Source: Radicibacter daui
Lineage (GTDB): Bacteria > Pseudomonadota > Alphaproteobacteria > Radicibacterales > Radicibacteraceae
NCBI GenBank assembly: GCA_030657355.1
Contig: CP131056.1
Coordinates: 699,001 to 763,000, forward strand
Length of the DNA: 64,000 nt
Direction: 5' to 3'
Part shown: in pieces, positions 7,060 through 57,087 of the stretch
Numbering within the stretch: the stretch's first letter is position 1
Layout of the letters: each line of letters opens with the position of its first letter
Notes under the pieces: model-generated
Databases searched by the model: none
What the model saw: the letters and a program-made list of their open reading frames with translations, nothing else
What the model was told of the DNA's origin: nothing
Made by a program: the position numbers and the translations under genes

Positions 7060-7422
7060 TCACCGGTCCGGTTTGGCAAGGGCCAGTATGCTGGTCCGGG
7101 TCTTGTCGTCAAAACCCAGGAGGAGCTTTCCGCCCACGTCGAACAAGGGCCTTTTGATCAGGGCCGGGTACGCGAGCAGGAGCGCGCGTGCCTTCTGCGC
7201 ACTCATATCCGCCTTTTCAGCGTCCGGCAACTGCCGCCACGTCGTACCAGCCTTGTTCAAAAGTGCTTGCCAGCCAAGTGTGGCAATCCAGCGATCCAGA
7301 TCGGCCTCATCGAGCCCGTCCTTGCGGTGATCGTGCGGTTGCCAGGCAAGCCCCTGCTCGCCGAGCCATGCCTGGGCCTTGCGGTAGGTGGTGCAGGTGT
7401 GGATGCCGTAGACCGTGATCAT
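7060..7422 (-). CDS. ArsC/Spx-family thioredoxin-fold protein (YffB-like)
   Basis: A 120-residue protein of the ArsC/Spx/YffB family. The start MITVYGIHTCTTYRKAQAWL matches the family N-terminus, with a single redox-type cysteine at C10. KRPLFDVGGKLLLGF near residues 90-104 corresponds to the conserved KRP(I/V) loop. YffB-like members bind glutathione and their substrate is unknown. The arsenate reductase residues cannot be confirmed and no arsenic gene is nearby, so arsC is not assigned. ATG 7422 is the only sensible start. Confidence 0.8.
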   Translation of the reverse strand: MITVYGIHTCTTYRKAQAWLGEQGLAWQPHDHRKDGLDEADLDRWIATLGWQALLNKAGTTWRQLPDAEKADMSAQKARALLLAYPALIKRPLFDVGGKLLLGFDDKTRTSILALAKPDR

Positions 7423-7758
7423 GCGTCTTGAATCCCTGTCCTGATTCGCGAAAATTTTTTAGAAAAAACTACCCTGAGGGGTGTCGATTTTTCGCTGTGC
7501 CACCGGGCTGTAGCGGGTCAGCCATATGGCAGGTTCAGCTTTTACCATGCAAAACAAGGCTTTGGGATACTTTTACCCAGCCCTTTATCAAAAATTGCTG
7601 ATGTTTAAAAATTAATCTCTTCAGGGTTGTGGGTGTTGTCGGGAAAAACGGGAGGGCCAGCCCGAAGCGGGCGGTCGTGCCGGTCCGGAAGGCATGCCAA
7701 GCCGGGAATTGCCACCTCCGGCCGTTCCCCCGTCCAGTGACTAACGGAGAGCAATCAG
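7423..7758. other. AT-rich intergenic region upstream of the tandem unknown genes
   Basis: This 336-bp gap separates divergent genes. The part at about 7440-7620 is clearly AT-richer than its surroundings and is the probable promoter and control region of the downstream gene. A GGAGAG ribosome binding site lies 7 nt before ATG 7759. I could not place a -35/-10 pair with confidence and see no small ORF worth calling. Confidence 0.5.
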
Positions 7759-8376
7759 ATGAGCACCTACGTTCTCAATATCGATGTTGCCAGCAGCGAC
7801 CTTGCTACCATTGTCGGTTCCGGCCAGCAGCTGAGCATCATCAAGTCCGCTGCCGGCGGCACGCCCGTATCCTGGGTCACCTTCACCCCGTTCGAGAACA
7901 ACACCATTACCTGGACGGAGGACTACTACCTCTACGCCTCGCAGACCGAGGTGCAGGCCAGCGCCACCATCCAGAAGCTGTCGCAGACGGCCGGCATCGC
8001 CAATGAAAGTCAGGTCTACAGCTTCTCCAACAGCGTGTTCTCGCCGGGCTCGCCCTCCACGCTCGAGGGCTATCTCGTCCAGAACTCCATGACGATGTAC
8101 AACAGCCTGACCTTTGGCCTGGCCCAGGGCCTGACGGTCAACGGCACCGCCCAGCCCACCTCGCCGATCAATGCGCAGGTACTGCCGCGCGGCTTCCAGG
8201 CCCAGTTCATCCCCTATGAGACCGTGTTCCTGGTGTTCAACAACACCATCGTCACCTCTCAGGTCTATACCCGCACCACCAGCGAGTCCGATGAGATCAC
8301 CTTCGGACCGGGCACCTCGACGCAGACCGTGTCCTTCTCCGCCGGCAAGTGGCTCACCGGCCCGCTGCCGGCCTGA
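7759..8376 (+). CDS. Unrecognised protein, first member of a tandem paralogous pair
   Basis: The protein has 205 residues, with no signal peptide or membrane segment. It is rich in Ser, Thr, aromatic residues and alternating hydrophobics, which suggests a beta-sandwich fold. I do not recognise the family. It aligns end to end with the next gene: YVLNIDVASSDLATI with FRLDIRIAPAEVRRI, the SNSVFS / RSSVFS block, NSLTFGLAQ..VNG with RALTFGLAQ..VNG, VLPRGF with VLPPGF, and GKWLTG with GRWLAG near the C-terminus. The strong ribosome binding site and AT-rich upstream region suggest an individually regulated, possibly well expressed gene. No neighbour suggests a function. Confidence 0.82.
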   Translation: MSTYVLNIDVASSDLATIVGSGQQLSIIKSAAGGTPVSWVTFTPFENNTITWTEDYYLYASQTEVQASATIQKLSQTAGIANESQVYSFSNSVFSPGSPSTLEGYLVQNSMTMYNSLTFGLAQGLTVNGTAQPTSPINAQVLPRGFQAQFIPYETVFLVFNNTIVTSQVYTRTTSESDEITFGPGTSTQTVSFSAGKWLTGPLPA

Positions 8377-8381
8377 GCGCG

Positions 8382-8402
8382 GCCGCCCGCCCTCGGGCGG
8401 CC
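8382..8402. repeat. GC hairpin after the first unknown gene
   Basis: The perfect inverted repeat GGCCGCCCG / CGGGCGGCC has a 3-nt loop just after the stop codon. No T tract follows, so it may stabilise a 3' end or attenuate rather than terminate strongly. Confidence 0.45.
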
Positions 8403-8456
8403 AGCCGGGAGCGGTACCCCTCCCCCCTGACCGGTCCCGGGCCTGATCGCCTGAGG

Positions 8457-8502
8457 CGACGCCGGGTCCTCAAAAGCCGTTGGCTTGGCGGATCCGGCGT
8501 CG
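8457..8502. repeat. Long imperfect hairpin between the paralogous genes
   Basis: Arms CGACGCCGGGTCC and GGATCCGGCGTCG pair over 13 positions with one G-U. They enclose a smaller AAGCC/GGCTT hairpin and end 55 nt before the second gene. Role unknown. Confidence 0.45.
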
Positions 8503-8557
8503 TTGCAGGTGCTCTCACAACAGCGACTTTCATCCGGCGACGGGAGGCGCCTTCATC

Positions 8558-9166
8558 ATGGATCAACCCTTCAGGCTGGACATCCGCATTGCTCCGGCCG
8601 AGGTGAGGCGCATCGCGGCAGCGGGGTACGAGCTTTGCCTGCTGGCACCGGATGCCGGTGCTGCCGCGACCGTCTGGCTGGCACTGCCGGTCGCCGAGCG
8701 GCAGGTCGTTCGCTGGGGGAGCGCGGCAGAACTCTTCGTCTCGCAGGTGGCTCCGCTGCCGGGCCGCGTCCTCGTCCCGCATTCCCGTACCCGCACCGGA
8801 GGCCTTGCCGAAGGGTCGCTCTGGCACTTGCGCAGCAGTGTTTTTTCTTGTGCGGGCAGCGTTGCCGCCGGCTTCGCCGTGCGCAACGAGATGGCCCGGT
8901 TCAGGGCGCTTACCTTCGGTCTTGCCCAGGCGGCGGAGGTCAATGGCCAGCCGCTTGGCCCCCGGCCACTGGCCGGCACGGTGCTGCCGCCGGGGTTTGG
9001 CAGCATCTTTCATCTGCCCGCCTCGGTCGTGGCTTTCTTTGCGCCACGGGGTAGCCAGTCAGCCGTTGGTGCCTTGCGTGCACCTGGCAGCCTGCGGCTT
9101 GATTTCTCACGCCGCTGTCCCGATCAGCGCCTCGTCTTCCAGGACGGGCGCTGGCTCGCCGGGTAA
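8558..9166 (+). CDS. Unrecognised protein, diverged second member of the tandem pair
   Basis: The protein has 202 residues with no signal peptide or membrane helix. It is homologous over its whole length to the preceding gene product, as judged by co-linear blocks (SSVFS, LTFGLAQ, VNG, VLPPGF, GRWLAG). Composition differs sharply: the first copy is rich in Ser/Thr/Asn, while this one is rich in Ala/Arg/Pro/Leu with several cysteines, suggesting old duplication and divergence of role. The frame is open from 8480, but ATG 8558 is chosen for GGGAGG about 10 nt upstream and because homology to the first copy starts there. It ends 14 bp before the convergent nudC. Confidence 0.8.
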   Translation: MDQPFRLDIRIAPAEVRRIAAAGYELCLLAPDAGAAATVWLALPVAERQVVRWGSAAELFVSQVAPLPGRVLVPHSRTRTGGLAEGSLWHLRSSVFSCAGSVAAGFAVRNEMARFRALTFGLAQAAEVNGQPLGPRPLAGTVLPPGFGSIFHLPASVVAFFAPRGSQSAVGALRAPGSLRLDFSRRCPDQRLVFQDGRWLAG

Positions 9167-9180
9167 CTAACGGGTAGCCG

Positions 9181-10152
9181 TCAGCCGCCGATATTTCCCG
9201 CCGCCCATTCCCGGATCAGCCAGTGGGCGATGGAGATGGTGGTCGGCACCTTGACCGGGGCTTCCGGATCACCGGCGAGCGCCGCCAGAATGTCCCGGCG
9301 ATGATACCAGTGCGCGGCATCGATCTCTTCCGGATCGATGGTGAGGGCGCCGTCCTCGGCCGGATCCAGCGTCTCGGCGGTAAAACCCACCATCAACGAC
9401 TGCGGAAATGGCCAGGGCTGGCTTGCCTGATAGACCGGCCGCGCCACCCGCACGCCCACCTCTTCCATCAGTTCGCGATGCACACAGTCTTCCAGCGTTT
9501 CGGCGGCCTCGACAAAGCCGGCCAGGGTGGAAAAGACACCTGCCGGCAGGCGGTGGCTGCGCCCGAGCAGGCACATATCGCCCTTGTGGACCAGCACGAT
9601 GACGGCAGCGTCGTTGCGCGGATAGACAGTGTGGCCGCAGGGCTCGCCGGTAACAGCGTCCAGCCCGGTGCAGCGGCGGGCATTGCCGGCTTCCACCGGC
9701 TCCGTCGGTGCGCCGCAGCGCCCGCAAAAGCGGTGGGTCCGGTGAAACCAGGAAAGGGCACGGGCGTGCGCGGCAAGGCCGGCATCGCGGTCGCTGAGCG
9801 TCGCGGCGGCCGAGCGCAGGTCAAGTGCGGCGGCCCCTTGCCATGAGCTGAGAAGCGGCGCGCCGGCAGCGGCTTCCGCTGCAGCCTGGCCGAAGGCGGT
9901 GACATCGAGGCTGAAGAGGCGGGCGCCGGCCTCGTCCAGCCCGTGAAAGGCAAGCTGCGTCAGCAAATCTTCCGGCAGGGCGCTTGCCGGGCGCAGTGCC
10001 AGTTTCGGGTCGCTGTCGCCGGTATCCACCAGTACGCCGGTCTGGTCGACGATGAAGACCTTGTCGCTGCCGGCAAGCGGCAGGGTCGGGCGATGACGCA
10101 GATGGGCCGCGCGGTCGACGGCGGCGGACATGAAGGCGGGCAGGGACGGCAT
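9181..10152 (-). CDS. nudC: NADH pyrophosphatase (NAD+ diphosphatase) NudC
   Basis: This Nudix hydrolase cleaves NAD(H) to NMN(H) and AMP, and in E. coli also removes NAD caps from RNA. The 323-residue protein has an N-terminal NudC domain and a zinc ribbon with C143, C146, C161 and C172. YPRNDAAVIV precedes a perfect Nudix box from G212 through R226-E227 to E230-E231. The NudC-specific SQPWPFPQSLM motif follows. ATG 10152 is chosen over the open frame to 10212 because AAAAGG lies 8 nt upstream. It is flanked by convergent and co-directional unrelated genes. Confidence 0.95.
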   Translation of the reverse strand: MPSLPAFMSAAVDRAAHLRHRPTLPLAGSDKVFIVDQTGVLVDTGDSDPKLALRPASALPEDLLTQLAFHGLDEAGARLFSLDVTAFGQAAAEAAAGAPLLSSWQGAAALDLRSAAATLSDRDAGLAAHARALSWFHRTHRFCGRCGAPTEPVEAGNARRCTGLDAVTGEPCGHTVYPRNDAAVIVLVHKGDMCLLGRSHRLPAGVFSTLAGFVEAAETLEDCVHRELMEEVGVRVARPVYQASQPWPFPQSLMVGFTAETLDPAEDGALTIDPEEIDAAHWYHRRDILAALAGDPEAPVKVPTTISIAHWLIREWAAGNIGG

Positions 10153-10243
10153 AGGATGGCCTTTTGAGCTCCGGGCGGCATCAAGCCGCCGGCCATCCCG
10201 TAAATGGGTCAATTCCCGGATCGGATCAAGTGGGTTGCAGGCG

Positions 10244-10289: not shown

Positions 10290-11411
10290 TCAGGAAGCAG
10301 GTTCAGGCTCCTGCACCAGGCAGCCATACCAGCCAAGGCCGCGATAGGTCTCATATCCCGGCGTCAGCGAATAGCCGGTGAGCGTTCCGTCGGCAGAGGC
10401 GGTGAAGCCCTGCTGGTGGCGGCCCACTTCCAGCGGCACATGGTCGCTGAGGATGCCCTGCCCGTCGGAGGAGGCGATGACCCTGTGCTCGCGGTCCAGC
10501 AGCATCACGCGGGTGCGCTCGCGTTCTTCCGGCGTCAGCCTTACGCCGTCGACGATGGCACGGGCCTGCGGCTCCCAGTCGAAATGGATACCGAGCACGC
10601 CGATGATGCGCCCGTCGCGCCGTGCCCCCTCGCGGATGGCCGCAGCATAGGTTGCAGCCAGTGCGCCCTTGAGCGGCGGGCACGGGCTGATGTCGGCCAC
10701 AACATAATCATCGCCGGTCTGGGTGCGCATCGCGTCGCGAAACCAGCTCTCGCGCGAGACGTCCTGGCCTTTGATCGGATAACGCTCCGGCCGGCCGTTG
10801 GCGATGATCCGGCCGTTGGTGTCGGCCACCCACAGGTCGAGATAGACGGTGTAGGCATCGAGGATGACGCCCAGCCGTTCGCAGGCATAGTCGCAGGCTG
10901 CCGTACTGGGGTTGGCGGCGGCTTCCACGATGGCACTGTCGGTTGCCCACCAGCGTACATCGCAGGTGCGCTCATAGAGATTGCGGTCAATGAGCTCGAC
11001 GGCGTTGAGCGCCAGATCGGCAAGGCGCTGGCCCTGGATCTTGCTCACCTCGCTGATGAGCCGGCCGCCGACGGCTTCCAGCGCGCTGACGCGGGAGAGC
11101 AGCTCTTCCTCAAGATCGCCGACCACCTGAGCAATCTGGGCAGAGACATCCTTGACCTCGTTGGCAACAACCGAAAAACCGCGGCCGGCATCGCCGGCAC
11201 GGGCACTTTCGATCATCGCATTAAGGGCGAGGATGCGGGTCCTGCTGGTGATGGTGCGGATGGACGCCGTGCGCTGGCGCACGGACTCACCCACACTCGC
11301 CGCCAGTTCGAAAACCAGCTCGGGGCTTGCCCTGTCGTCAGCAGGAAGGGCGGGCGGGGCCAGCCCGCCGATGGCGGCAGTCTGGGCCGTGGTCAAAGCA
11401 GAGATCGTCAT
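10290..11411 (-). CDS. Soluble receptor: short N-terminal MCP tip plus C-terminal Cache-like sensor (copy 1)
   Basis: The protein has 373 residues and no transmembrane segment. Residues 30-130 form a short helical hairpin containing the conserved chemoreceptor tip (LALNAMIESARAGDAGRGF, 60-79, then SVVANEVKDVS), which contacts CheA/CheW in typical receptors. Residues 150-370 resemble a double Cache-type sensor: VADTNGRIIANG, SWFRDAM, IGVLGIHFDWE and MLLDREHRVIASSDG. The order is inverted relative to classical receptors and there is no room for the long methylation bundle. It is paralogous to the gene at 12484-13584. ATG 11411 has GGAGAG upstream. The ligand is unknown and coupling to CheA is inferred only. 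Confidence 0.8.
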   Translation of the reverse strand: MTISALTTAQTAAIGGLAPPALPADDRASPELVFELAASVGESVRQRTASIRTITSRTRILALNAMIESARAGDAGRGFSVVANEVKDVSAQIAQVVGDLEEELLSRVSALEAVGGRLISEVSKIQGQRLADLALNAVELIDRNLYERTCDVRWWATDSAIVEAAANPSTAACDYACERLGVILDAYTVYLDLWVADTNGRIIANGRPERYPIKGQDVSRESWFRDAMRTQTGDDYVVADISPCPPLKGALAATYAAAIREGARRDGRIIGVLGIHFDWEPQARAIVDGVRLTPEERERTRVMLLDREHRVIASSDGQGILSDHVPLEVGRHQQGFTASADGTLTGYSLTPGYETYRGLGWYGCLVQEPEPAS

Positions 11412-11892
11412 GGATGTAAAACTCTCCGGGGGGCTGCGAGTTATCCATTCCGAGTGATCCAAACCATGTTTACGGGACTGTTTATGCCTCTGCCGCAAAA
11501 GGCAGGGCTCGCCCGCTTTTACAACACACCTCATGCCTCGTTGCGGGCACATTGGGTCAAATGCGTTGCTGTTAAGCCGAGGCTAGAGGCTGGGAATCCA
11601 CCACCGCAAGCAGAATGCACTTGCAGGGGGAAACTTTTTAGATTGCATGCAATTTTTATATAAATTGGTATTCCTCGATCCGGGAAAATGCCGCGTTCGC
11701 GAACAGATGGATGAAGAAATAAGCACCCTTGGTAGTTGTCTATACTTATGGCCGCCCGTTTTGGCCGAAGTTCATACGTCTTTCGGGCGAATCACTTTGC
11801 ACAAAAGGATAGGTCAGCCTGGCCGGTGTTTACGCAGTCGCGAAAGGATCCCCGGGTCGCCAGCTGCCTCAAAGTGAAATTGGTTACATAGA
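11412..11892. other. Intergenic region upstream of the soluble receptor gene
   Basis: The gap of about 480 bp holds no convincing gene. A stretch near 11630-11680 is AT-rich and may carry a promoter. A 76-codon frame at 11647-11877 on the plus strand lacks a good ribosome binding site and coding character, so it is not called. Confidence 0.5.
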
Positions 11893-12483: not shown

Positions 12484-13584
12484 TCAGCCTGCCTTCGGCG
12501 GCGTATAGACAAGGCAGCCATACCAGCCGAGGCCCCGATAGGTCTCGTAACCCGGCGTCAGTGAATAGGCGACGATCTCGCCCTCCCGGCCTTCGTAGAA
12601 ACCGCGGTCGCCGGCCGCCAGATCCAGCTGCACGCTCTGGCTCAGCACGCCCTTGCCGTCGGCCGAGGCGATGATCCGGTGGCGGCTGTCGAGCAGCATC
12701 ACGCGGGTGCGGCTCCATTCCTCGTCGGAGAGGCGCACGCCGCCCACGATAGCCTTGGCCTGGGGTTCCCAGTCGAAGTGAATGCCGAGCACGCCGATGA
12801 TCTTGCCGTCCCGCTCGCCGCCTTCACGGATGGCTGCGGCATAGGTTGCCACCAGGGCGCCGCCGAGTGTGGCGCTGGGGGCGATGTCGGCCGCGACGTA
12901 ATCATCGCCGCTGGCTGTCTGCATGGCCTGCTGGAACCAGCTTTCCCGTGCGACATTGAGGCCCCGCGTGCTGAAGCGGTCGGGCCGGCCGTTGGAGATC
13001 ACGTTACCGTCGGTATCCGCCACCCAAAGATCGAGATAGACGGTATAGGCATCGAGGATGACGCCGAGGCGCTGCGAGGCGTGGCGTGTGGTGGCTTCCG
13101 ACGGTCCGGCTGCCGCTTCCACGATGGCGCTGTCAGTGGCCCACCAGCGCACGTCGCAGGTGCGCTCATAAAGATTGCGGTCGATGAGTTCCACGGCGTT
13201 GAGCGCCAGGTCGGCAAAACGCTGGCCGCGCACCTGGCTCACCAGCAGGCGTCCGATGGTCTCCAGCTCTTCCACCCGGCTCATCAGTTCGCGCTCAAGG
13301 TCGCTCACCACGCGGGCGATCTCGGAGGAGACGTCCTTCACCTCGTTGGCGACCACGGAAAAGCCGCGTCCGGCATCGCCGGCACGGGCGCTTTCGATCA
13401 GGGCGTTGAGCGCCAGGATACGGGTGCGGCTGGTAATCGCGCGGATCGCTGCGGTGCGCTCGCGGACGGACTCGCCGACATTGGCGGCAAGATTGAAGAC
13501 CCGCTCGGGACTGGCATCGGCCTTGGCATTGGACTGGAGGTTCTGCTCGGAAGCAGGGGCCGGGGTGCGGGATTGATGCATCAT
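12484..13584 (-). CDS. Soluble receptor: short N-terminal MCP tip plus C-terminal Cache-like sensor (copy 2)
   Basis: A 366-residue paralogue of the 10290-11411 product with the same inverted layout. A Pro/Gln-rich N-terminus is followed by the chemoreceptor tip at residues 57-85 (LALNALIESARAGDAGRGF), a short return helix, and a Cache-like sensor with VADTDGNVISNG, ESWFQQAMQ, IGVLGIHFDWE and MLLDSRHRIIASADG. The C-terminal GYETYRGLGWYGCLV block is nearly identical in both. There is no membrane segment. The frame opens at 13635, but AGGGA lies directly before the twin ATG at 13584/13581. The long AT-rich region upstream suggests its own promoter. Confidence 0.8.
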   Translation of the reverse strand: MMHQSRTPAPASEQNLQSNAKADASPERVFNLAANVGESVRERTAAIRAITSRTRILALNALIESARAGDAGRGFSVVANEVKDVSSEIARVVSDLERELMSRVEELETIGRLLVSQVRGQRFADLALNAVELIDRNLYERTCDVRWWATDSAIVEAAAGPSEATTRHASQRLGVILDAYTVYLDLWVADTDGNVISNGRPDRFSTRGLNVARESWFQQAMQTASGDDYVAADIAPSATLGGALVATYAAAIREGGERDGKIIGVLGIHFDWEPQAKAIVGGVRLSDEEWSRTRVMLLDSRHRIIASADGKGVLSQSVQLDLAAGDRGFYEGREGEIVAYSLTPGYETYRGLGWYGCLVYTPPKAG

Positions 13585-14091
13585 ATTTCCCTGAAGGCCA
13601 GCGGTCGCTGACATCAATGCAGATGAACCAGTCAAAAGCCGAAAGTTAGGCAGTGAAAGGTATAAGTCATTGTATGCAACTTGTCATACGAAATGATGAA
13701 TCTTTGCTCATGGGGTGACAAAAATGATCTCTGACAACTATTTAGGTCTAGAGTCTTTTGCAGTTTCATGTCATTGAGTGCTTAAAATATATGCAGAGTT
13801 GCTTAAAAATATAGCTATCTAATTATTTTTAGTTGGATTTCATTTTTATTTTCGCCATAAATAAGTGTAAAATTAATCTTAAGGTTAAAGCGCCCTATCC
13901 TAAAAAGCCGATCAGGGGCCGCGTCACCCTGCCGCGCCAGGTGTTTTCAGGAGCGGCCGTGCTGAATTGATCTGCCCCAATAGTCATGGGCGGCAAGCCG
14001 CGCACCTTTACCGCCAGGACGCGGGCCAATATATCCAAGATCGAGGGCGGGCAGGCCGCCTTGCCTGTGGATTGCGTCAGGACGGTCACCG
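13585..14091. other. Intergenic region with AT-rich promoter-like tract
   Basis: About 500 bp between divergent genes. From about 13640 to 13890 the sequence is strongly AT-rich, unlike almost everything else in the first 48 kb, and is the likely control region of the receptor gene on the minus strand. From 13890 to 14091 it is GC-rich with no convincing ORF; a 64-codon minus-strand frame at 13895-14089 lacks coding features. Confidence 0.5.
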
Positions 14092-47365: not shown

Positions 47366-48535
47366 GTGAAATCGGGGAGGGGTGTCGTGGCAGAAAACTA
47401 CCGTCTGGCGGCCGGAGGCATCGAGCTGGAGGTTGACCTCACCGTCGGCCATCTGGCGGCGCTGCGGGTGGAGAGCAACGGCCCCGACGGGCACCGCATT
47501 CTCGAGCCGCTGCACAGGGCGCCCTGGCGGGACGATCCGGCCATCCAGGCCGATGAGAACATCGCCCCCAATGTGCGCCGCCTTGCCGGCGATTTTTTCT
47601 GTGCGCCGTTCGGTATCCATGGCGATGGCACCGACCCGGTGAGCGGCGAGGCGTTGCCGCCCCATGGCTGGCCCGGCAACAGCCGCTGGCAGGTTGTGGA
47701 CGAGACGCAGGATGGCAAGGGCGGCCACACGCTGACGCTGGCGCTGGAAAAACCGGTGCAGGGGGGGCGCCTTATCAAGGAATTGACGCTGCGGGACGGT
47801 CACCCCTTCGTCTATCAGCGCCATATCTTTGAGGGCGGCAGCGGAATGATCCCGGTTGCCCATCATGTGATGACGCAGTTCAGCGGCAGCGGTCAGTTGG
47901 CCTTTTCCCCCAAACGTTTTGCCGTGACCCCGCCGGCCCCGCAGGAAACCGATCCCGCCCGCGGCCGCTCCCTTTTCGGGCGCGGCGTGCTGACCCACGA
48001 CCTCACCCGCCTGCCCGGCCACGAGCCGGGCACCAGCTTCGATCTCACGCAGTATCCGGCGGCGGCCGGTCATGAGGATTTTGTGCTGCTGGTGGAAGAT
48101 CCCGCCAACCAGATCGGCTGGACGGCGGCATTGCGCGAGGAAGAGCAGGACATGCTCATCACCCTGCGCGATGCCCGCCAACTCCCCGTCACCATGCTCT
48201 GGTACTCCAGCGCCGGCCGCCACTACAGCCCCTGGAACAGCCGCCATAAAGGCGTGTTGGGCATTGAGGACGGCTGTGCCCTTCCGGGATTCGCCGCAAG
48301 TGGCATGAGCGAGGCGGAACGGGCGCTTGAGCAGTCGATTGTGCAGCGCGGCATACATCTTAATGCAGTAATGCGAACGGAAATTCGGCACGTGTTGGGT
48401 GTATTTGCGACATCGGGTAACCCAAAAAAAGCACGGGATGTCTTCGCAGCGTCATTAGCAGGAAAAAAGCCAATTTCTGCGGTGCAGTTTTGCCAAGATT
48501 TTCTCTTGTCTCGACGCGTCGGGAAACACGCCTGA
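47366..48535 (+). CDS. Aldose 1-epimerase-like (galactose mutarotase fold) protein
   Basis: A 389-residue protein of the aldose epimerase/DUF4432-like fold: GHLAALRVESNGPDGHRILEP, LPPHGWPGNSRW containing the catalytic-type His, and WYSSAGRHYSPWNSRHKGVLGIEDGC. It would interconvert sugar anomers or bind sugars, fitting the adjacent sugar import locus. The start is GTG 47366 (after AAGGAGAG) or GTG 47387 (after GGGGAGGGG). From about 48350 the last 60 codons become AT-richer than the rest of the gene, foreshadowing the polysaccharide island. Confidence 0.8.
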   Translation: MKSGRGVVAENYRLAAGGIELEVDLTVGHLAALRVESNGPDGHRILEPLHRAPWRDDPAIQADENIAPNVRRLAGDFFCAPFGIHGDGTDPVSGEALPPHGWPGNSRWQVVDETQDGKGGHTLTLALEKPVQGGRLIKELTLRDGHPFVYQRHIFEGGSGMIPVAHHVMTQFSGSGQLAFSPKRFAVTPPAPQETDPARGRSLFGRGVLTHDLTRLPGHEPGTSFDLTQYPAAAGHEDFVLLVEDPANQIGWTAALREEEQDMLITLRDARQLPVTMLWYSSAGRHYSPWNSRHKGVLGIEDGCALPGFAASGMSEAERALEQSIVQRGIHLNAVMRTEIRHVLGVFATSGNPKKARDVFAASLAGKKPISAVQFCQDFLLSRRVGKHA

Positions 48536-48830
48536 GGTGTCTATAGCCACTAGATTGCAGAAATTCTGTGAGATTGCCGACTCTAGTAGTGAGAATCACT
48601 TCCATCGGTGCTTCGCCTGTTTGGCGCGCGCGCAGACTTTAGCGTCACTGCGAAACTAAATTACTGAAAGTGGCCTTTGTTTGCAACTTATGAAGGGGTT
48701 GGTCGTTGTTGCCAAGGGAGATCAGCCTTGAGCAAGGCAATCGGTAAATTCAGGTTGCATTGGATTTTACCTGTTGCGATAAGTGTCCCAAGTCGTGTTG
48801 GGATCGCGCTTGGAGATTGGGGAGAACATC
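48536..48830. other. Intergenic region at the left edge of the polysaccharide island
   Basis: This 295-bp gap of lowered GC precedes the YjbE-like gene and probably holds its promoter. GGGGAGAAC lies before ATG 48831. I see no reliable promoter hexamers, no gene and no integrase site. Confidence 0.5.
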
Positions 48831-49127
48831 ATGAGCGTTAAGAAGTTTACCGCCGTAGCGGTTTCTGCTGTGGCTCTCGTCTTGGCGCCGATGGCGGCCA
48901 TGGCTCAGGCTGCCAGCGGTGCTGGTGGTGCAGGAACGACCGGTACTGCCACTGGCGGTGCAGCTGCAGCCGGTGCCGGTGCCGCGTCTACGGCGGCTGT
49001 CGGTGGCATTACGGCCGGTACTCTGGCTGTCGGTGTGGCCGCTGCGGCGGCAGTCGGTGTTGCTGTTGCCGTTGCTTCCAATGACAATAACTCTGGTTCG
49101 ACCACTTCGACCGGTACTTCGCACTAA
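48831..49127 (+). CDS. YjbE/GfcA-like small secreted Ala/Gly-rich protein
   Basis: A 98-residue exported protein: signal peptide MSVKKFTAVAVSAVALVLAP cleaved near AMAQA, then a low-complexity Gly/Ala/Thr region, a hydrophobic Ala/Val segment (TLAVGVAAAAAVGVAVAVAS) and a Ser/Thr tail. This resembles YjbE/GfcA, the first gene of yjbEFGH and of group 4 capsule loci, whose function is unclear. Similarity rests on composition, length and context, not on motifs. It has its own terminator. Confidence 0.72.
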   Translation: MSVKKFTAVAVSAVALVLAPMAAMAQAASGAGGAGTTGTATGGAAAAGAGAASTAAVGGITAGTLAVGVAAAAAVGVAVAVASNDNNSGSTTSTGTSH

Positions 49128-49160
49128 AAGAATCTTCTGTTATTTTGGAAGCTCTACGAT

Positions 49161-49196
49161 AAAAAGCTGCCTGTATTTCGGGCAGCTTTTTATTTT
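49161..49196. terminator. Terminator between the YjbE-like and YjbF-like genes
   Basis: The 11-bp perfect stem AAAAAGCTGCC / GGCAGCTTTTT has a 9-nt loop and is followed by TATTTT. It serves the convergent genes on both strands. Confidence 0.87.
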
Positions 49197-49854
49197 ACCC
49201 ACTATAAGGCTTCAGTATCTTTAAGGTGAATTCCGGCACGTAGGGTATTGGGGTTTGAGTGCTTTGCCAGACGGTTCCTGCTTCATCTTGCCAGTATTTG
49301 CTTTCCGATGACCAATCAAGTGATTTTGATTTGCTTATCTCAATATAAATCGTTGTCAATATTTTCTGTCCGTAAATATCTATTTCCTCTTTGCTGTCTT
49401 TATGTACTTCGGACTCTATTAAAACGCCGTACCGGTTTGATTCCGGAAGGTCGATCATTCGCAATGTGCGCTGGCCATCTTCAAATGTCATACCGTGCCT
49501 CGCCTCGGGCGCGATCCAATTGGTTTGGCCGAGGTTTTGAGGCAGCCCTGCCGTTTTGACGATCCTCAGATTAGTGGTGATGAGTTGAGTGCGGTCATGG
49601 GAAAACCAATGAAGATAATCATTGTCTTCTACCTCACCCAGGACCAGCAACGCCGGAGCTGCGCGCCCTATTTTTGCGTCAAGCGTCGCATAAGGTAGTT
49701 GTCGGGCCTGGGTCGGGTTGTAAACGGGGGTGGAACTCCCCCAGGCGAGGTTAATTGTGCTGCCAACTTGGGCAAAATTGCTCTGGCCACATCCGCTCAA
49801 TAGGGCCGCTGTGGAAGCCGAAAGTAGTGAGCGTCTGGAAAAGGTTGCGGCCAT
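49195..49854 (-). CDS. yjbF: YjbF/GfcB-like outer-membrane lipoprotein
   Basis: A 219-residue lipoprotein. The N-terminus FSRRSLLSASTAALLSGC combines a twin-arginine-like motif (SRRSLL) with a lipobox. The YjbF family body follows: LPYATLDAKIGRAAPALLVLG, the LHWFSHDRTQLITTNLRIVK segment and TAGLPQNL. YjbF/GfcB lipoproteins belong to exopolysaccharide or capsule secretion loci. Unlike the E. coli operon order, this gene points opposite to the YjbE-like and SLBB genes, leaving 57 bp of shared divergent promoter space before the SLBB gene. Confidence 0.83.
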   Translation of the reverse strand: MAATFSRRSLLSASTAALLSGCGQSNFAQVGSTINLAWGSSTPVYNPTQARQLPYATLDAKIGRAAPALLVLGEVEDNDYLHWFSHDRTQLITTNLRIVKTAGLPQNLGQTNWIAPEARHGMTFEDGQRTLRMIDLPESNRYGVLIESEVHKDSKEEIDIYGQKILTTIYIEISKSKSLDWSSESKYWQDEAGTVWQSTQTPIPYVPEFTLKILKPYSG

Positions 49855-49911
49855 CCTGTGACTCAGCGATAGTTCGGAACTGAATTTTGAAGGTGTTTCC
49901 TTGGGGGGGCT

Positions 49912-52818
49912 GTGTCTACTCGTTTTTTGCCCGTAGTCGGCGCCTTATTGATTTTTTTCAATGCTCTGCCCGGCCTGGCTCAAGGGCAATCCTTTAATTT
50001 TGGAGATGATTCACTCGGCGTTTCTTCGCAAGATTTGTTGCAGGGGCTGCAGCAAATGAGGGGCACCCAGGGGGGCGACGAAACTGGTAGCGCGGCAGGT
50101 TCTGCTTCGAGAGCTGGTGCCCTCAGTACTCTATCCGGCGACGTGGTGCCGCCGCCCGCAGTTGAGCCAAGCCAGGTTGAGGTGGATTACTCGCGGCGCG
50201 CAGGGCAAAAGCTGCGTTTGATTGGTTATGACGCCGTTAATAATATAAATCAGCTAGCACGTGGCGCACCTATGGGCGCCGTCAGTGACGACTATCGACT
50301 TGGCGTGGGGGATGAAATCATCGTCTCCATCCGCGGTCAGCGTAACACAACGCAGCGAACATTGGTGGATGTGTCCGGACAGGTTACTGTGCCGTCGCTT
50401 CCCCCTATTGCGGCTGCCGGAAAAACGTTTGGTGAGTTCCGGACCGAGCTGGAGCGACAGGTCCAGGAAGGCTTTTTACAGTCTCAGGTCTATGTCTCGC
50501 TTGGCGCGATCCGGCAGCTTTCGGTGCTGGTGGCAGGAGAAGTCAGCCGCCCAGGGCTGAAAACAGTGACGGGAGTGTCGTCGGTCATCGACGCGCTGGT
50601 CGCGGCAGGCGGTATTAAGAAGAGTGGCTCGCTGAGGCGGGTTGTGCTTGTTCGCGAAGGGCGTGAAACCGTCCTCGATCTCTATCCTGTACTCCTCGGA
50701 ACGGCCAAGGCCTCCGATATAAGTTTGCGAGATGGCGACCGTCTGGTTGTGCCGGTCCTTGGTCCGACTGTTGCCATTTCGGGCGATGTGATGCGTCCTG
50801 GGATCTATGAACTTAATGCAGACAAACTTGATGCCGCTGCCGCCATGGCTTGGGCGGGCGGTGGAATTAGCGCCGAGGGAAATGTTCTTTCCCGTCTGCG
50901 GGTGACATCAACGGGTCAGCGGGAGGTAACGGACCTTGGCTCCGGCGCCAAGCTGTCGCTTGCCCGGGGTGACATTCTGAAGGTTGCGCGGCGCGGCGGC
51001 GGTGATATCGGAACAGTGTCGCTTGTTGGCAATGTAGCGGTTCCAGGCGAGCGGCCGCTTGCGCGCTACCCTTCCGTATTTGCCCTTATTCGTGACCCCG
51101 GTGTCCTGCAGGGCGCTTCCTATCTGCCGTTCGTTGTGGTTATCACGACGGACAAGGTGAGTGGTGCCCAGCGCTATGTGGCCGTCGATGCGGCTGGTGC
51201 GCTCGGCGGGGGGGCCACGCAGGCTCAATCCGATTTTCCGTTGAGCAGTGGCGATCAGGTGGTCGTCCTGAGCCTGTCGGATGTCCGCTACCTGTCTTCC
51301 GCCGACGTGCAGAATGTGTTGCGCGGTGAGCTGCCCGTTTATGGTCTCGTGGACAGGAAGAAGCTCCAGAATCAAGGGAACGGCCTTGATGGAAGGTCGG
51401 AAGTTGGTGATGAAGAGCCGTTACTTGCCCAGTACAAAAATCAGCGTGCTTCTTTGGCTACTGCTGGAGGCGGTAAGGACGGCCTGAATCAGTCAGCGAC
51501 GGCTAACAGGAGTTTGTTGGCAGCGCAATTGACACCGCAGCAAAGTGCCGAGAATGGCACCTCTCCTTTGGGGATGGCAGACACTGGGCCGGCTGCCAGT
51601 CAGCCGTTAGATGCCCTGAAGTATTGTGCGGGCCTGCGCCAACTGATCGCGAATGTTATCCGGCGGGGCAATGCGGTTTCCCCGGCTGGTGGGTTGCGGC
51701 CGGCTAACGATCCTGCAGCAGATTCGGGTGCCGCCTTTGATATTCAGCCCTGCCCGGTTGTCTTTGATCAGATCGCAGACCTTCTTCCATTCGTTGTGGA
51801 TCACGCAAGTCAGGTCCAGGGTGAGGTCCGGAACCCGGGCATCTACCCCGTAGCCCAGAGTCTGCCGGCCAACGTACTTGTCAATGTCGCGGGCGGTTTA
51901 AGCGACGCGGCGGATTCGTCCCATGTCGAGGTGACGAACTATCGGGTTGCGCAAGCCGGGGCGACAGTGCGGCAGGTAGTTTCATACAGCGCTGCCGCCG
52001 CGGTTGCCGTTATGCCAGGTGATGCCGTTCGCGTCGGGGCAAGATACTCGGACCGAGACGCGGGTGGCGTTATGATAAGCGGTGAAGTTGAACGCCCTGG
52101 ACTCTACAACATCACGCGTGGCGAAAAGTTATCGGATTTGATAGCCCGGGCCGGTGGGCTGACACCACAGGCCTATCCGATCGGGAGTGTTTTTACCCGC
52201 GAGGCCGTACGCCGCCAGGAACAGGAAGGGTACGAAATAACGGCTCGCGAGCTGGAGTCTGGAATCGGCCCGGCGTTGATCAGCATTTCAAGCACTGCGG
52301 CCGGCTCTTCTGCCCAGACCGCGGCGGCTACAGTGAGCGCCATTCAGCAACTGGTGCGTTCTTTGCGGTCGGCAAAAGCTGTCGGACGTGTTGTGACTGA
52401 AACTGATCCCGCAATTCTCAGTGTAAGGCCTGAGCTCGACACTGTTTTGCAAGTTGGCGATGCACTGTTCGTTCCCAAACGGCCCAATCACGTCTCAATC
52501 TCGGGTGAGGTACTTCACCCGGGTGCCCAGCGGTTTGAAGACGGTCTGGCGGCAGGGGATTATATCCGGAACAGCGGTGGCTTCACGGCAAATGCGGACG
52601 ATTCCAGAATCTATATGATACTGCCGTCCGGGCAGGCGAAACCGATCAAGAGTTCATTCTGGAATTTCAGTCGGGAGAATGTCCCCCCCGGGACCACGGT
52701 GGTTGTCCCGCGTGATCTGACACCCTTTAATTTCTGGGCAATCACCAAGGATTTGACCCAGATCCTCAGTCAGGTCGCACTCTCAGCGGCATCGCTCGCT
52801 GTTATTTCTAATAACTGA
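49912..52818 (+). CDS. Large multi-SLBB polysaccharide export protein (Wza/GfcE-like)
   Basis: A 968-residue periplasmic/outer-membrane export protein. A signal peptide (MSTRFLPVVGALLIFFNALP, cleaved near LAQG) lacks a lipobox. A Poly_export domain follows at about 120-210 (DDYRLGVGDEIIVSIRGQ), then repeated SLBB-type modules recognised by VAGEVSRPGLK, ISGDVMRPGIYEL, VQGEVRNPGIYPV, ISGEVERPGLYNI and ISGEVLHPGAQRF. The C-terminus is hydrophobic (LSQVALSAASLAVIS), reminiscent of the Wza outer-membrane helix. It is much larger than Wza (about 380 aa). The start is GTG 49912 after a G-tract. It is followed by yjbH with 1 bp between. Confidence 0.87.
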   Translation: MSTRFLPVVGALLIFFNALPGLAQGQSFNFGDDSLGVSSQDLLQGLQQMRGTQGGDETGSAAGSASRAGALSTLSGDVVPPPAVEPSQVEVDYSRRAGQKLRLIGYDAVNNINQLARGAPMGAVSDDYRLGVGDEIIVSIRGQRNTTQRTLVDVSGQVTVPSLPPIAAAGKTFGEFRTELERQVQEGFLQSQVYVSLGAIRQLSVLVAGEVSRPGLKTVTGVSSVIDALVAAGGIKKSGSLRRVVLVREGRETVLDLYPVLLGTAKASDISLRDGDRLVVPVLGPTVAISGDVMRPGIYELNADKLDAAAAMAWAGGGISAEGNVLSRLRVTSTGQREVTDLGSGAKLSLARGDILKVARRGGGDIGTVSLVGNVAVPGERPLARYPSVFALIRDPGVLQGASYLPFVVVITTDKVSGAQRYVAVDAAGALGGGATQAQSDFPLSSGDQVVVLSLSDVRYLSSADVQNVLRGELPVYGLVDRKKLQNQGNGLDGRSEVGDEEPLLAQYKNQRASLATAGGGKDGLNQSATANRSLLAAQLTPQQSAENGTSPLGMADTGPAASQPLDALKYCAGLRQLIANVIRRGNAVSPAGGLRPANDPAADSGAAFDIQPCPVVFDQIADLLPFVVDHASQVQGEVRNPGIYPVAQSLPANVLVNVAGGLSDAADSSHVEVTNYRVAQAGATVRQVVSYSAAAAVAVMPGDAVRVGARYSDRDAGGVMISGEVERPGLYNITRGEKLSDLIARAGGLTPQAYPIGSVFTREAVRRQEQEGYEITARELESGIGPALISISSTAAGSSAQTAAATVSAIQQLVRSLRSAKAVGRVVTETDPAILSVRPELDTVLQVGDALFVPKRPNHVSISGEVLHPGAQRFEDGLAAGDYIRNSGGFTANADDSRIYMILPSGQAKPIKSSFWNFSRENVPPGTTVVVPRDLTPFNFWAITKDLTQILSQVALSAASLAVISNN

Positions 52819-52819
52819 A

Positions 52820-55270
52820 GTGCTCAAGGTTAAGGCAATCTATGCCGGGAAGCGAGGACTGACGGCCGCTGTAATCTGCGTTTGCAGCGGCCTCGGTTTC
52901 TTGCCTGCCCATGCCCAGGAAGAAAATCAGCTTCGTGGCGCATTTGGGCAGCATGGCACTACGGCGGCGATCAACATGCCAAACGGCCGTATGGCGCCTG
53001 ATGGAGAGTTCGGGCTGGGATATTCCGAGGTCTCTCCCTATCGGCGTTACTTTTTTACGCAGCAATTTCTTCCCTGGTTGCAAGGGACTTATCGTTATAC
53101 CGCAATTAGTTATCTGCGTTATGGCAGTGGAGATTTTGCCCAAAATCAAAGCTACAAGGACAAGGCGGTAGATGTAAAAATTCGCCTTGTTCGCGAGGGG
53201 CGATATGTCCCTGATCTTTCTTTGGGGTTCAGGGATATCGGCGGTACCGGACTTTTCTCCAGCGAGTATCTGGCGGCAACGCGCAGAATATATGACTTCG
53301 ATATTACAACTGGTCTCGCTTGGGGGAATATGGGGTCGCGGGGAGGTTTGACCAATCCTTTCGGCTATTTTTCTGACCGCTTCAAGGATGAGAGCCGCAC
53401 CTCCAGAACAACGGGTACGATCGGATCTGCGTTTTTTAGTGGCGAGGAGGTGGCACCTTACGCCGCCGTGGAGTGGTATCCTTCCAGTCTGCCGAATTTG
53501 AGCCTCAAGGCAGAGTTTGATGGAAATAACTACCAGTCAGAGCCGTTCGGTGCTGTTCTGGATACTAACAGTCCTCTAAATTTTGGCTTGGTTTACAGGC
53601 CATTTAGCTGGGTTGATCTGGCGGCTAGTTATGAACGCGGTAATACGGTTGGGCTGCGGGTCATTCTGCACAGCAATTTCAATGCTTCCGCCGGTGTTCC
53701 CAAGGTCGATGAAAAGCCTCCTTTTCCGGTTCCCTTGCAAGCCGTAGAACAGCCCCGGCAAGAGGGGCTGACCAACCCTGTGGACGTGCCCGCGCTGGTA
53801 GCCTCCGCGGGGAGTGCCGGAGTGCGATTGGCTTCGGTGGACTTGAGGGCTCAGAGCGCACTATTTCGGACGATGTCAATCCCGACCCCCGAAGCTTTGG
53901 CCTCTGCTGAACGGAATATATATAGCCACTCCGATATGGAGCAGTTCGACACAATCAGCTTTGTCGGGCCGGATGGGCAATTGCTGCGCACCCTGACCGG
54001 GCTACGGACATCTGATAGAAGCCGTTCAGATCTGGCCGGCCAGGACTCCGCCGGGCGCCTTGAGGGAGCCCAGAAAAATTCTCCGCCGACCATAGATAAC
54101 CAGTCGATAAAACAGCGGGTGTTCGCCGCACTCAAGGCTATCGACATGAGGGGTGAAGCTTTTTTTTTAAAGGATAAGCGCGCATATCTGAAATACTCAC
54201 AGGCTCTTTATCGTGATCGGGACGAGGCACTTATCCGCGCGTCGCGCGCGTTGGCGGCCGCAGTTCCCGATAGTGTAGAAGTGCTTGATCTGTCGGAGCA
54301 GGAGGAAGGGGTAGTCGTCAAGCGGGCGGTGTTCCTGAAGCGGGATATCGCTCTGGCAGCCAATTATCAACGAAGCTTCGACGAGGCTTGGGTTAATGCT
54401 TCAACACTCGATACGCAGGAGCTGGTTTCGGGCTGGAGTGAAAATGCAGAAAACTACCCAGATTACTCCTGGGGACTGTCGCCGAAGTTGCGGCAAAGTG
54501 TCGGCGGCCCGGATAATTTTTATCTATACCAGATTTACGGAAGCGCTAACGGAGAGGTTAGATTCAATAAAAATTTCAGCGTAGATGGAAGTGTGGGCGC
54601 CAACATAAAGAATAATTTTGATAACTTTACATACGAAGCTCCAAGCGAATTGCCGAGAGTTCGTACAAAAATTAAGGACTATCTAAAGGGTGCGCCTGTT
54701 TGGATTGGCAGTCTCAATGCTAACTACATAAATCAAATAGACCAGAATTTATATTATAGACTTTCTGCGGGTGTATTCGAATGGATGTATTCGGGTGTCG
54801 GTGGAGAAGTTCTATATAAAAAACCTGAAGCGCGGTGGGCGCTCGGACTGGATGCCAATTATGTTTGGCAAAGAGACTTTGATGGTGGCTTTGGGTTGCT
54901 CGACTATAGCACCGCCGTTGGTAACCTGACCTACTATCAGGATTTGCCCTTCTGGGATCTGAACCTCCAATTAAGTGTCGGCCGCTATCTTGCCGGTGAT
55001 GTTGGCGCAACCTTGACGTTGTCACGGCTCTTCAAAAATGGTGTCCGTGTCGGCGTGTGGGGAACGAAAACCAACGTGTCGGCCGAGCAGTTTGGCGAAG
55101 GGTCCTTCGACAAGGGTTTCAAGGTATCAATTCCATTCTCGGTGTTTTCAACCCGCCCCTCTACCTCTTCGGCAGAGTTCGCTTTCGCTCCTCTGACGAG
55201 GGACGGTGGGCAAAAAGTCATAACGCCCAAGCCTCTCTATTCGACTCTTTTTCAGGCCGGAGGTAGCTAG
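52820..55270 (+). CDS. yjbH: YjbH/GfcD-like outer-membrane protein
   Basis: An 816-residue outer-membrane protein of the YjbH family. The signal sequence (GLTAAVICVCSGLGFLPAHA) is followed by GAFGQHGTTAAINMPNGRMAPDGEFGLGYS, typical of the family start, and many alternating aromatic/hydrophobic beta-strand segments. YjbH/GfcD is thought to form a beta-barrel used in polysaccharide secretion. The start GTG 52820 lies 1 nt after the stop of the SLBB gene, so translation is probably coupled. GC content is lower than in flanking regions. Confidence 0.86.
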   Translation: MLKVKAIYAGKRGLTAAVICVCSGLGFLPAHAQEENQLRGAFGQHGTTAAINMPNGRMAPDGEFGLGYSEVSPYRRYFFTQQFLPWLQGTYRYTAISYLRYGSGDFAQNQSYKDKAVDVKIRLVREGRYVPDLSLGFRDIGGTGLFSSEYLAATRRIYDFDITTGLAWGNMGSRGGLTNPFGYFSDRFKDESRTSRTTGTIGSAFFSGEEVAPYAAVEWYPSSLPNLSLKAEFDGNNYQSEPFGAVLDTNSPLNFGLVYRPFSWVDLAASYERGNTVGLRVILHSNFNASAGVPKVDEKPPFPVPLQAVEQPRQEGLTNPVDVPALVASAGSAGVRLASVDLRAQSALFRTMSIPTPEALASAERNIYSHSDMEQFDTISFVGPDGQLLRTLTGLRTSDRSRSDLAGQDSAGRLEGAQKNSPPTIDNQSIKQRVFAALKAIDMRGEAFFLKDKRAYLKYSQALYRDRDEALIRASRALAAAVPDSVEVLDLSEQEEGVVVKRAVFLKRDIALAANYQRSFDEAWVNASTLDTQELVSGWSENAENYPDYSWGLSPKLRQSVGGPDNFYLYQIYGSANGEVRFNKNFSVDGSVGANIKNNFDNFTYEAPSELPRVRTKIKDYLKGAPVWIGSLNANYINQIDQNLYYRLSAGVFEWMYSGVGGEVLYKKPEARWALGLDANYVWQRDFDGGFGLLDYSTAVGNLTYYQDLPFWDLNLQLSVGRYLAGDVGATLTLSRLFKNGVRVGVWGTKTNVSAEQFGEGSFDKGFKVSIPFSVFSTRPSTSSAEFAFAPLTRDGGQKVITPKPLYSTLFQAGGS

Positions 55271-55357
55271 TCGCCAGGCGCCATCTCGGCCTAAGATGTT
55301 CGCTCAGTGAGTGAGGCTTGATAGACAACGGACGACTGGACTTTCATCGACTCTCTC

Positions 55358-56956
55358 TTGTCGGTGAGCGTGTCACCGCTCGTGACGTGGATGTATAAAA
55401 GCCTTTTTCAAGATTTTTTGATATTGTTGTCTAGGGTAGGTTCGAAAAAGATGATAACGGAAGAAAATAAATTCTTCGAGGGTTTCAGTTGTGGTAGTAA
55501 ATACGGAATAATATTTGTTAATTTAATTAGAAGAATTGCTATGATATTTTCTGATGTGTTGGGGTTGGTAATTCCATTTTTTGTAATTAGAAAAAACTTC
55601 ATAGATGCATCTTTGTATATTTATAAAATGCAAGAAAATGGTACCGCTTCCAGGGTCGATACCGGAGTGGACTGGTATTTTATTTTAATATCAGTTGCTT
55701 TGGTTTTGATGATAATTCTCGGATTTTACGGTGAAAGAAAGAGTCTATGGGATGAAATATATGTTTATGTTCGTGCTTTTTTCTTTATGATTTTATTCGA
55801 TTTTGTTGTTCTGTTCACTGCTGGATACTCTGGCGGTGGTGTTTATTTTTTTTCTTTCTGGGTGTTCGCTTTTGTTTTCGTTTTGTTTATTCGGGCAATG
55901 TTCAAGGCGGTATTAAATCGCTTGGGGTTGTGGAGCATTGCGACTGTCGTCGTCGGAAGCGAGACGAATATAGAACATGCCGTTGAGGCGGTTAGTAAGC
56001 AGGCGACGGTAGGTTATGCCATCCGGGATGTTCTGGTGTTGACCGATCGGGGCAGTCTGCAGGGGAGCCTTGCTGTCGCTGGATACAATTCGACGTCGGC
56101 GTCGGATGTTGGCGATATCATCAATTATATTGAACGCCGTCCGGATGTTCATGTTGTCCTTGCGTCCGATGAGAGGTTTTCTGATGCCTTCTATAAAATT
56201 ACCGACTTTTTGGCCTCTCGTCCAAATACACTTGATTTACTTCCGAGTATAAAGGGGTTACCGCTTTACGGGACGGATATCATACATCTGTTCGGTGAAG
56301 AGATTTTGATGCTCAGGGTGCGGAATAACCTGAGTCGTCGTGTTCCAAAATTATTTAAAAGGGTGATGGACGTATTTATTTCTTTAATTATGATTCTTAT
56401 TCTTGCGCCAGTTTTTCTTTTTCTGGCACTGCTCATAAAGTCGGAAGATGGCGGGTCGCCAATCTATGTCCAAACCAGAGTTGGTCGGAACGGTAGACTT
56501 TTTAACTGTTACAAGTTTCGTAGTATGAAGGTTGACGCGGAGCAGGTTTTGTCTCGATGGCAAGGCGAAAATCCAGCACTGTTCGCTGAGTACAAGGCAG
56601 GAAATTTCAAACTCAGGAACGACCCGCGGATTACCAGAATTGGCCGCTTCATTCGTGCCCATAGTCTCGATGAGCTGCCGCAGCTCTTCAACGTGCTGTT
56701 GGGGCAGATGGCTCTGATTGGGCCTCGTCCATTAATTGAACGCGAAGTTCCGGATTATGGGGGGCGGATCATACATTACTATCGCACCCGGCCAGGAATA
56801 ACCGGCCTGTGGCAGGTCAGTGGGAGAAGCGAGACGACCTTTGTGGATCGTGCCGCCTATGATGAATGGTACGTAAAGAACTGGTCTGTTTGGCTGGATG
56901 TCGTAATTTTGATCAAGACCGTTCGGGTGGTATTGGGGCGAGGCGGCGCGTACTGA
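55358..56956 (+). CDS. Polyprenyl-phosphate sugar-1-phosphate transferase (WbaP/WcaJ type)
   Basis: The initiating enzyme of repeat-unit synthesis, transferring a sugar phosphate from a UDP-sugar to undecaprenyl phosphate. The 532-residue protein has four N-terminal membrane helices, a central Rossmann-like domain, one more helix ([21 protein letters not shown]), then the catalytic bacterial transferase domain with [39 protein letters not shown] and [14 protein letters not shown]. The N-terminal third is strikingly AT-rich. The start is unclear: GTG 55358, ATG 55391 or ATG 55451 all lack good ribosome binding sites. The sugar cannot be predicted. Confidence 0.9.
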
Positions 56957-57087
56957 AAGATGTGGGCGCGGGTTGCAGCGGGCCTCCGGCTGCCGCTCAC
57001 GCGTTGCCGATTCTATATTAATTGGCGCGTCTGCCGTGTTCGGACAGGTTTTTGCGTATGACGCCGAAAGAGCCTTGGCGTTAAAAG

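Follow-up and report, generated by a model that had tools for sequence, protein, structure and literature searches.

A tandem pair of diverged paralogues from an undescribed protein family: a possible conserved core with an exchangeable downstream partner

Two adjacent genes on the plus strand, gene A (7759-8376; 205 aa) and gene B (8558-9166; 202 aa; both sets of coordinates were checked), encode homologous proteins that we read as one module of an undescribed family, i.e., of ~205-residue predicted beta-sandwich proteins in which no export signal is visible. Within this module, A would be the conserved core and B a fast-diverged paralogue that occupies an exchangeable downstream partner slot, with both proteins acting together. 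We consider this core/partner reading as a whole plausible but tentative. The partner slot would be taken by a peptidase or nuclease in many other genomes and by a diverged copy in others, the window (the whole stretch of 64,000 nucleotides analysed here) included. Since no hydrolase adjoins the A/B pair in the window, the link from these relatives to A and B is itself one that we infer.

The earlier note had described A and B as a tandem pair of homologues, and this holds: in a single comparison, they align end to end over ~200 residues with 28% identity (E 2e-25). In addition, a family profile picks up B in its own genome (E 9e-35). Given this alignment and profile match, the homology is not due to chance. 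Rather than being placed in unrelated families by profile searches, both proteins match one and the same family profile over its full length (positions 1-197 of 206). No further family copies were found by searches of the window's genome. The reported split in composition is present as well: A contains 12.7% Ser, 13.7% Thr and no Cys, while B is composed of 16.3% Ala, 10.4% Arg and 7.9% Pro and has 3 Cys. The net charges are -7 (A) and +8 (B). Also in agreement with the earlier note, neither protein begins with a signal-like stretch (judged by eye) or contains a membrane-like segment (peak 19-residue hydropathy of 1.0 for A and 1.5 for B). Flanking the pair are genes for an ArsC-like (7060-7422) and a NudC-like (9181-10212) protein, both named from sequence reading.

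The family had been called unrecognised, which we can uphold within the libraries searched (Pfam, NCBIfam, PHROGs, PADLOC and PDB sequences). Searches of A and B against Pfam, NCBIfam and PDB sequences gave no convincing match (for Pfam, 0 families at E≤10), and the comparison of 57 members with Pfam, PDB profiles, PADLOC, NCBIfam and PHROGs resulted in scattered weak single-member matches only. Among open-licence papers, nothing was found on the family or its motifs. A scan of a genome collection, using an alignment of four relatives as query, identified 53 loci in 7 phyla (Pseudomonadota, Bacillota, Bacteroidota, Myxococcota, Cyanobacteriota, Actinomycetota and Acidobacteriota), and a search of a plasmid collection provided two relatives, from Rhizobium rhizoryzae and Alicyclobacillus. 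The family is rare, i.e., 2/385 sampled genomes of the class match a single-protein query and 6/398 genomes of the phylum match the family profile (in a sample not chosen for the family), with the window's genome among them in both cases. Five of the six phylum genomes have 2 or 3 neighbouring matches each; the sixth (G729) has one profile match and, on closer reading, a second adjacent copy. A phage or viral origin was rejected, as no relative was found in 50,697 phage records nor, by one narrow pattern search, in viral contigs. Independently, we observed that the plasmid copy of Alicyclobacillus sp. TC (L004:5992-7920) is split by a TnpB-carrying insertion, such that its two parts correspond to the two profile halves.

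To compare folds, AlphaFold models of A (pLDDT 95.9, pTM 0.90) and B (pLDDT 90.9, pTM 0.86) were built from 56 family sequences. Both models show a strand and one helix first, followed by strands in matching order. That is, the models are similar in strand order, as judged without superposition. Foldseek reports no match at E≤0.001 against the PDB (both models) or against viral models (A only), and a second look at the fold (VIA) gave generic sandwiches only. The top fold match for both models is the CBM41 carbohydrate-binding module (PDB 2j71; Z 6.9, rmsd 3.1, 89 residues for A; Z 4.5, rmsd 3.4, 86 residues for B), but the match spans less than half of the protein at 8% identity, such that its Z may reflect only a common arrangement. 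Neither aegerolysin nor staphostatin chains are among the fold matches listed for the models. The absence of a close PDB fold does not show that the predicted fold is new, the comparison having covered the PDB and viral models; still, a protein with a confident model and no close PDB counterpart lends itself well to structure determination.

The 53 loci comprise 36 with one copy, 15 with two, one with three and one (L062) with a broken copy. The latter, which the script had scored as two, was counted as single, resulting in 37 single-copy and 16 multi-copy loci. An always co-occurring pair is thus not what the neighbourhood survey gives: most loci (37/53, including the broken one) have one copy, often beside a hydrolase. 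Where diverged pairs exist, the identity between copies is 22-47%. In a tree of 81 rows, from which near-duplicate loci (L011, L025, L026, L027, L039, L054) and fragments below 150 aa were omitted, the second copies are spread over more than one clade, and the tandem arrangement therefore probably arose repeatedly.

The divergence within pairs is directional. The downstream copy is less identical to the 30 single-copy relatives in 17/17 comparisons (mean identity) and lies farther from them by tree path in 19/20 listed pair comparisons, with locus L032 as the exception. We also merged the loci by hand into lineages, i.e., 12 diverged pair lineages and 17 single-copy lineages in which the downstream side could be read. 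For diverged same-strand pairs, the downstream copy is faster-evolving in 12/12 of these hand-collapsed lineages (sign test, p 0.0005); adding two recent duplications (L012 and L032; closer pairs, 64-66% identical) changes this to 12/14 lineages (p 0.013). In L012, the upstream of two minus-strand copies is slightly longer-branched (0.28 vs. 0.25) and has the lower score (213.6 vs. 226.8 bits); this same-strand pair is outside the identity and tree-path comparisons, and its status as an exception comes from tip lengths and scores. All loci were found through conserved copies, which favours neither gene order.

One could explain such pairs by duplication and subsequent subfunctionalisation into two independent paralogues, where B took another target and no physical complex is formed. 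The low identity within diverged pairs and the probably repeated duplication agree with this scenario, but the order of a conserved 5' and a diverged 3' copy recurs across lineages and independent drift would impose no order, which is why we regard independent paralogues as distinctly unlikely. The earlier suggestion of a two-component complex or specialised paralogues is partly supported, in that the recurrence of pairs and their directional asymmetry agree with specialised partners. With charges of opposite sign, A and B would be suited to a physical complex, yet such a contrast is no rule in other pairs. As a family rule, charge complementarity was rejected, since the majority of second copies resemble the first in being acidic.

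Gene B marks the extreme of the tree with the longest end branch of all 81 rows (3.73, compared with 0.40 for A). Across phyla, 32 positions are near-invariant, i.e., conserved in at least 85% of the 30 single copies. A keeps 27 of these and B 14. All seven of W39, W52, S61, N109, G120, L121 and Q123 (A numbering) are retained in both proteins, while K29, E54, Y56, Y59 and A60 are changed in B. K29 and E54 are altered in many second copies and retained in nearly all first copies. Together with the preserved LTFGLAQ and VNG blocks, the sequence pattern suggests that B retains the scaffold and that one conserved site is lost or altered.

The long branch, the 18/32 changed near-invariant positions and a third-position GC of 0.75 (0.88 for A) would also be expected if B were a copy decaying under relaxed selection. 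We consider such decay improbable: the frame of B is intact and preceded by a ribosome-site-like stretch, its model is confident, both sequence blocks are preserved, and intact diverged second copies exist in many other lineages. Apart from the family copies, unmatched ORFs of 80-100 residues were seen between copies (L003:6663-6905, L061:10757-11056) or just before them (L076:8675-8971).

The partner slot of the core/partner reading derives from the neighbours of single copies. A same-strand hydrolase gene lies no more than 320 bp downstream at 21/37 single-copy loci vs. 1/16 multi-copy loci, in a survey that was seeded with conserved copies and for which the neighbours given to Pfam (40 proteins) were picked by eye. 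The 21 hydrolases of single-copy loci are 11 S1 trypsin-like, 5 EndoU, 2 neprosin, 1 M10 matrixin, 1 M12A astacin and 1 C25 (gingipain-type) proteins, identified by Pfam on chosen representatives and, for the remaining loci, by tblastn to these representatives; some neighbour matches are below the Pfam cut-off (L019 Trypsin_2, L012 NAL1/S64). At L043, the neighbour was identified by its similarity to the PDB sequence of a serine protease (E 1e-11). When hand-collapsed lineages are compared, a verified downstream hydrolase is present in 8/17 single-copy vs. 1/12 pair lineages, a barely significant difference that is sensitive to the merging of lineages (Fisher test, p 0.043). Among the neighbours, the His and Ser motifs of serine proteases are intact in the six S1 proteins for which the full sequence was read, and so are the HExxH zinc motifs of the astacin, matrixin and M43-type proteins.

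Several further neighbours are outside the count, namely a second astacin at the opposite flank of the family gene (L013), M43/reprolysin-like genes ~0.9 kb upstream (L044, L057), an Exo_endo_phos gene adjoining the L079 copies as well as a weak one beside L059, and a weakly NAL1-like gene (L084). As a background, we used 52 genes located 4-9 kb away, for which the best 50 of 64 matched families include no peptidase of the hydrolase classes above. They do include DJ-1/PfpI, transglutaminase and adenosine deaminase domains; the adenosine deaminase domain beside L014 was not counted as evidence because the same domain occurs in these background genes. If peptidases make up ~3-5% of genes, 7/17 lineages with a peptidase would be very unlikely to arise by chance. 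A separate observation concerns Clostridium cibarium, where three family copies occur together with a divergent NAL1/S64-like serine protease gene (L012:8782-12455).

From the relatives, one conserved, leaderless beta-sandwich protein might serve different genomes as a shared carrier or docking component whose partner is exchangeable, i.e., a peptidase (S1, M10, M12A, C25 or neprosin), an EndoU nuclease or its own rapidly diverging copy; this is a possibility to which we commit only guardedly, with some doubt. The conserved first protein points to a conserved task, and the variable second gene accordingly to a variable specificity or activity. For the window, A would supply the conserved binding or assembly function (a common surface, assembly or carrying), with B contributing the variable side, be it specificity or effector. 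The two genes would be expressed together, and their products would form a hetero-oligomer with a joint function, probably exerted on the surface of the producing cell or outside it. Should this be correct, a modular system spanning at least 7 phyla would have as its hallmark a family that the searched libraries lack, and it would combine a single constant component with partners drawn from unrelated classes of enzymes. It would also supply many natural pairings for asking whether this component serves its partner as a carrier or dock or acts as a restraint on it.

Restraint is the essence of the main rival, according to which the family acts as a cytosolic guard or immunity protein that binds and silences a hydrolase exported by the same cell, with the hydrolase-less tandem copies being orphan or multi-target guards. 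The short same-strand spacing of family gene and hydrolase is in line with this, and so is the missing signal peptide of the family proteins, while the Rhizobiales trypsin-like, EndoU, neprosin and M43-type neighbours start with signal-like stretches (both judged by eye). There is also a precedent in the staphostatin-staphopain pairs, where a small inhibitor protein is encoded beside a protease gene and, in the cases reported in PMC2873492, co-transcribed with it. Such a protease adjacency is present in many relatives and absent at the window, where no hydrolase accompanies the pair. Staphostatin-type inhibitors furthermore face cysteine proteases, whereas the neighbours of the family are unrelated enzyme classes, i.e., one fold would need to silence peptidases of the S1, M10, M12A, C25 and neprosin types as well as the EndoU nuclease. 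The near-invariant positions across phyla are unlike the face of a fast-coevolving inhibitor, and the peptidase neighbours at the Gram-positive loci L013, L016, L021 and L028 have no signal-like start. We therefore rate the guard model as rather unlikely; even under it, the family would represent an unusually broad inhibitor fold.

Variable hydrolases beside a constant protein and the patchy occurrence over 7 phyla could further be taken as signs of a conflict or defence module composed of sensor and effector, with the hydrolase or B as the effector. This we deem highly improbable: PADLOC yields 0 families for the 57 members at E≤0.01, the phage and viral-contig searches found no relatives, and no defence genes were noticed nearby.

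Returning to the core/partner reading, two known systems invite comparison. Aegerolysins (Pfam PF06355) comprise ~140 residues, in contrast to the ~205 residues of the A/B family. Aegerolysins, too, are small beta-structured proteins, and their distribution over the tree of life is likewise patchy. They can act together with a different protein encoded next to them, as described for two-gene systems in PMC9505663, and the A/B family may be somewhat alike in operation. The partners differ, being hydrolases or a paralogue in the A/B family and not pore-forming proteins. Membership by profile was rejected, with no aegerolysin match for A or B in Pfam (E≤10) and none among the ten families listed for the 57 members (E≤1). 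The second system, PUD-1/PUD-2 of C. elegans (PDB 4jde), consists of homologous small beta-sandwich proteins forming a heterodimer (PMC3683130). A and B may be similar as two homologous small beta-sandwich proteins, for which a heterodimer would be the expected counterpart. On the other hand, PUD proteins are a nematode family without sequence match to A or B, and the fold match of 4jde_B to the A model is weak (Z 3.9, rmsd 3.8, 86 residues) and tied with many unrelated sandwiches.

For the region upstream of the pair, an AT-rich control region had been proposed. The AT-rich part of this claim stands: the presumed control region (7423-7622) has a GC content of 43.5% vs. 62.8% for the window, which falls into the bottom 0.5% of 200-bp segments (window 1-46000). 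A sigma-70-like site was not found there. A purine-rich, ribosome-site-like stretch precedes the ATG of both genes, i.e., GGAGAG (7746-7751, plus strand) for A and GGGAGG (8542-8547, plus strand) for B, both from sequence reading.

The long hairpin between the genes is confirmed as an imperfect structure at 8445-8514, and folding of 8370-8560 provides a second, perfect 9-bp GC hairpin just past gene A (8381-8402; both on the plus strand). The intergenic region folds better than shuffled versions (z -3.2; 1/200 shuffles equally good). No terminator was called in this hairpin region, and an Rfam search of it gave one sub-threshold match only. The long hairpin is single-copy in the genome, which rules out a repeated mobile element.

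Relatives often show local regulators. Rhizobiales loci frequently carry a divergent serine recombinase gene (PF00239) within ~0.4 kb of the family gene. Between the two, 10 of the 14 loci examined (L022, L024, L025, L026, L027, L029, L031, L050, L051, L054) contain two conserved inverted sites, 173-191 bp apart, which flank the promoter region and may be binding sites. An invertible promoter was considered and rejected: every comparable inner segment has the same orientation, and inversion is therefore not supported. At all seven loci of the Kiloniella/Thalassospira group (L034, L038, L039, L041, L047, L058, L060), a divergent gene ~160 bp upstream encodes a ~160-residue protein with a C-terminal helix-turn-helix, which we take to be reminiscent of Mor-type activators, and at L003 an AraC-type gene lies upstream of the family gene. 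In the window, no serine recombinase, helix-turn-helix or AraC-type regulator is located next to A/B, and PF00239 recombinases are absent from the window's genome.

Two other features of the window were observed. The GC content drops to 46-60% within 48001-58000, compared with ~63-65% around it, which may mark a foreign island. Closer to A/B, two similar proteins, apparently of the sensory cache type (judged by eye), are encoded at 10290-11552 and 12484-13635 and form another diverged pair.
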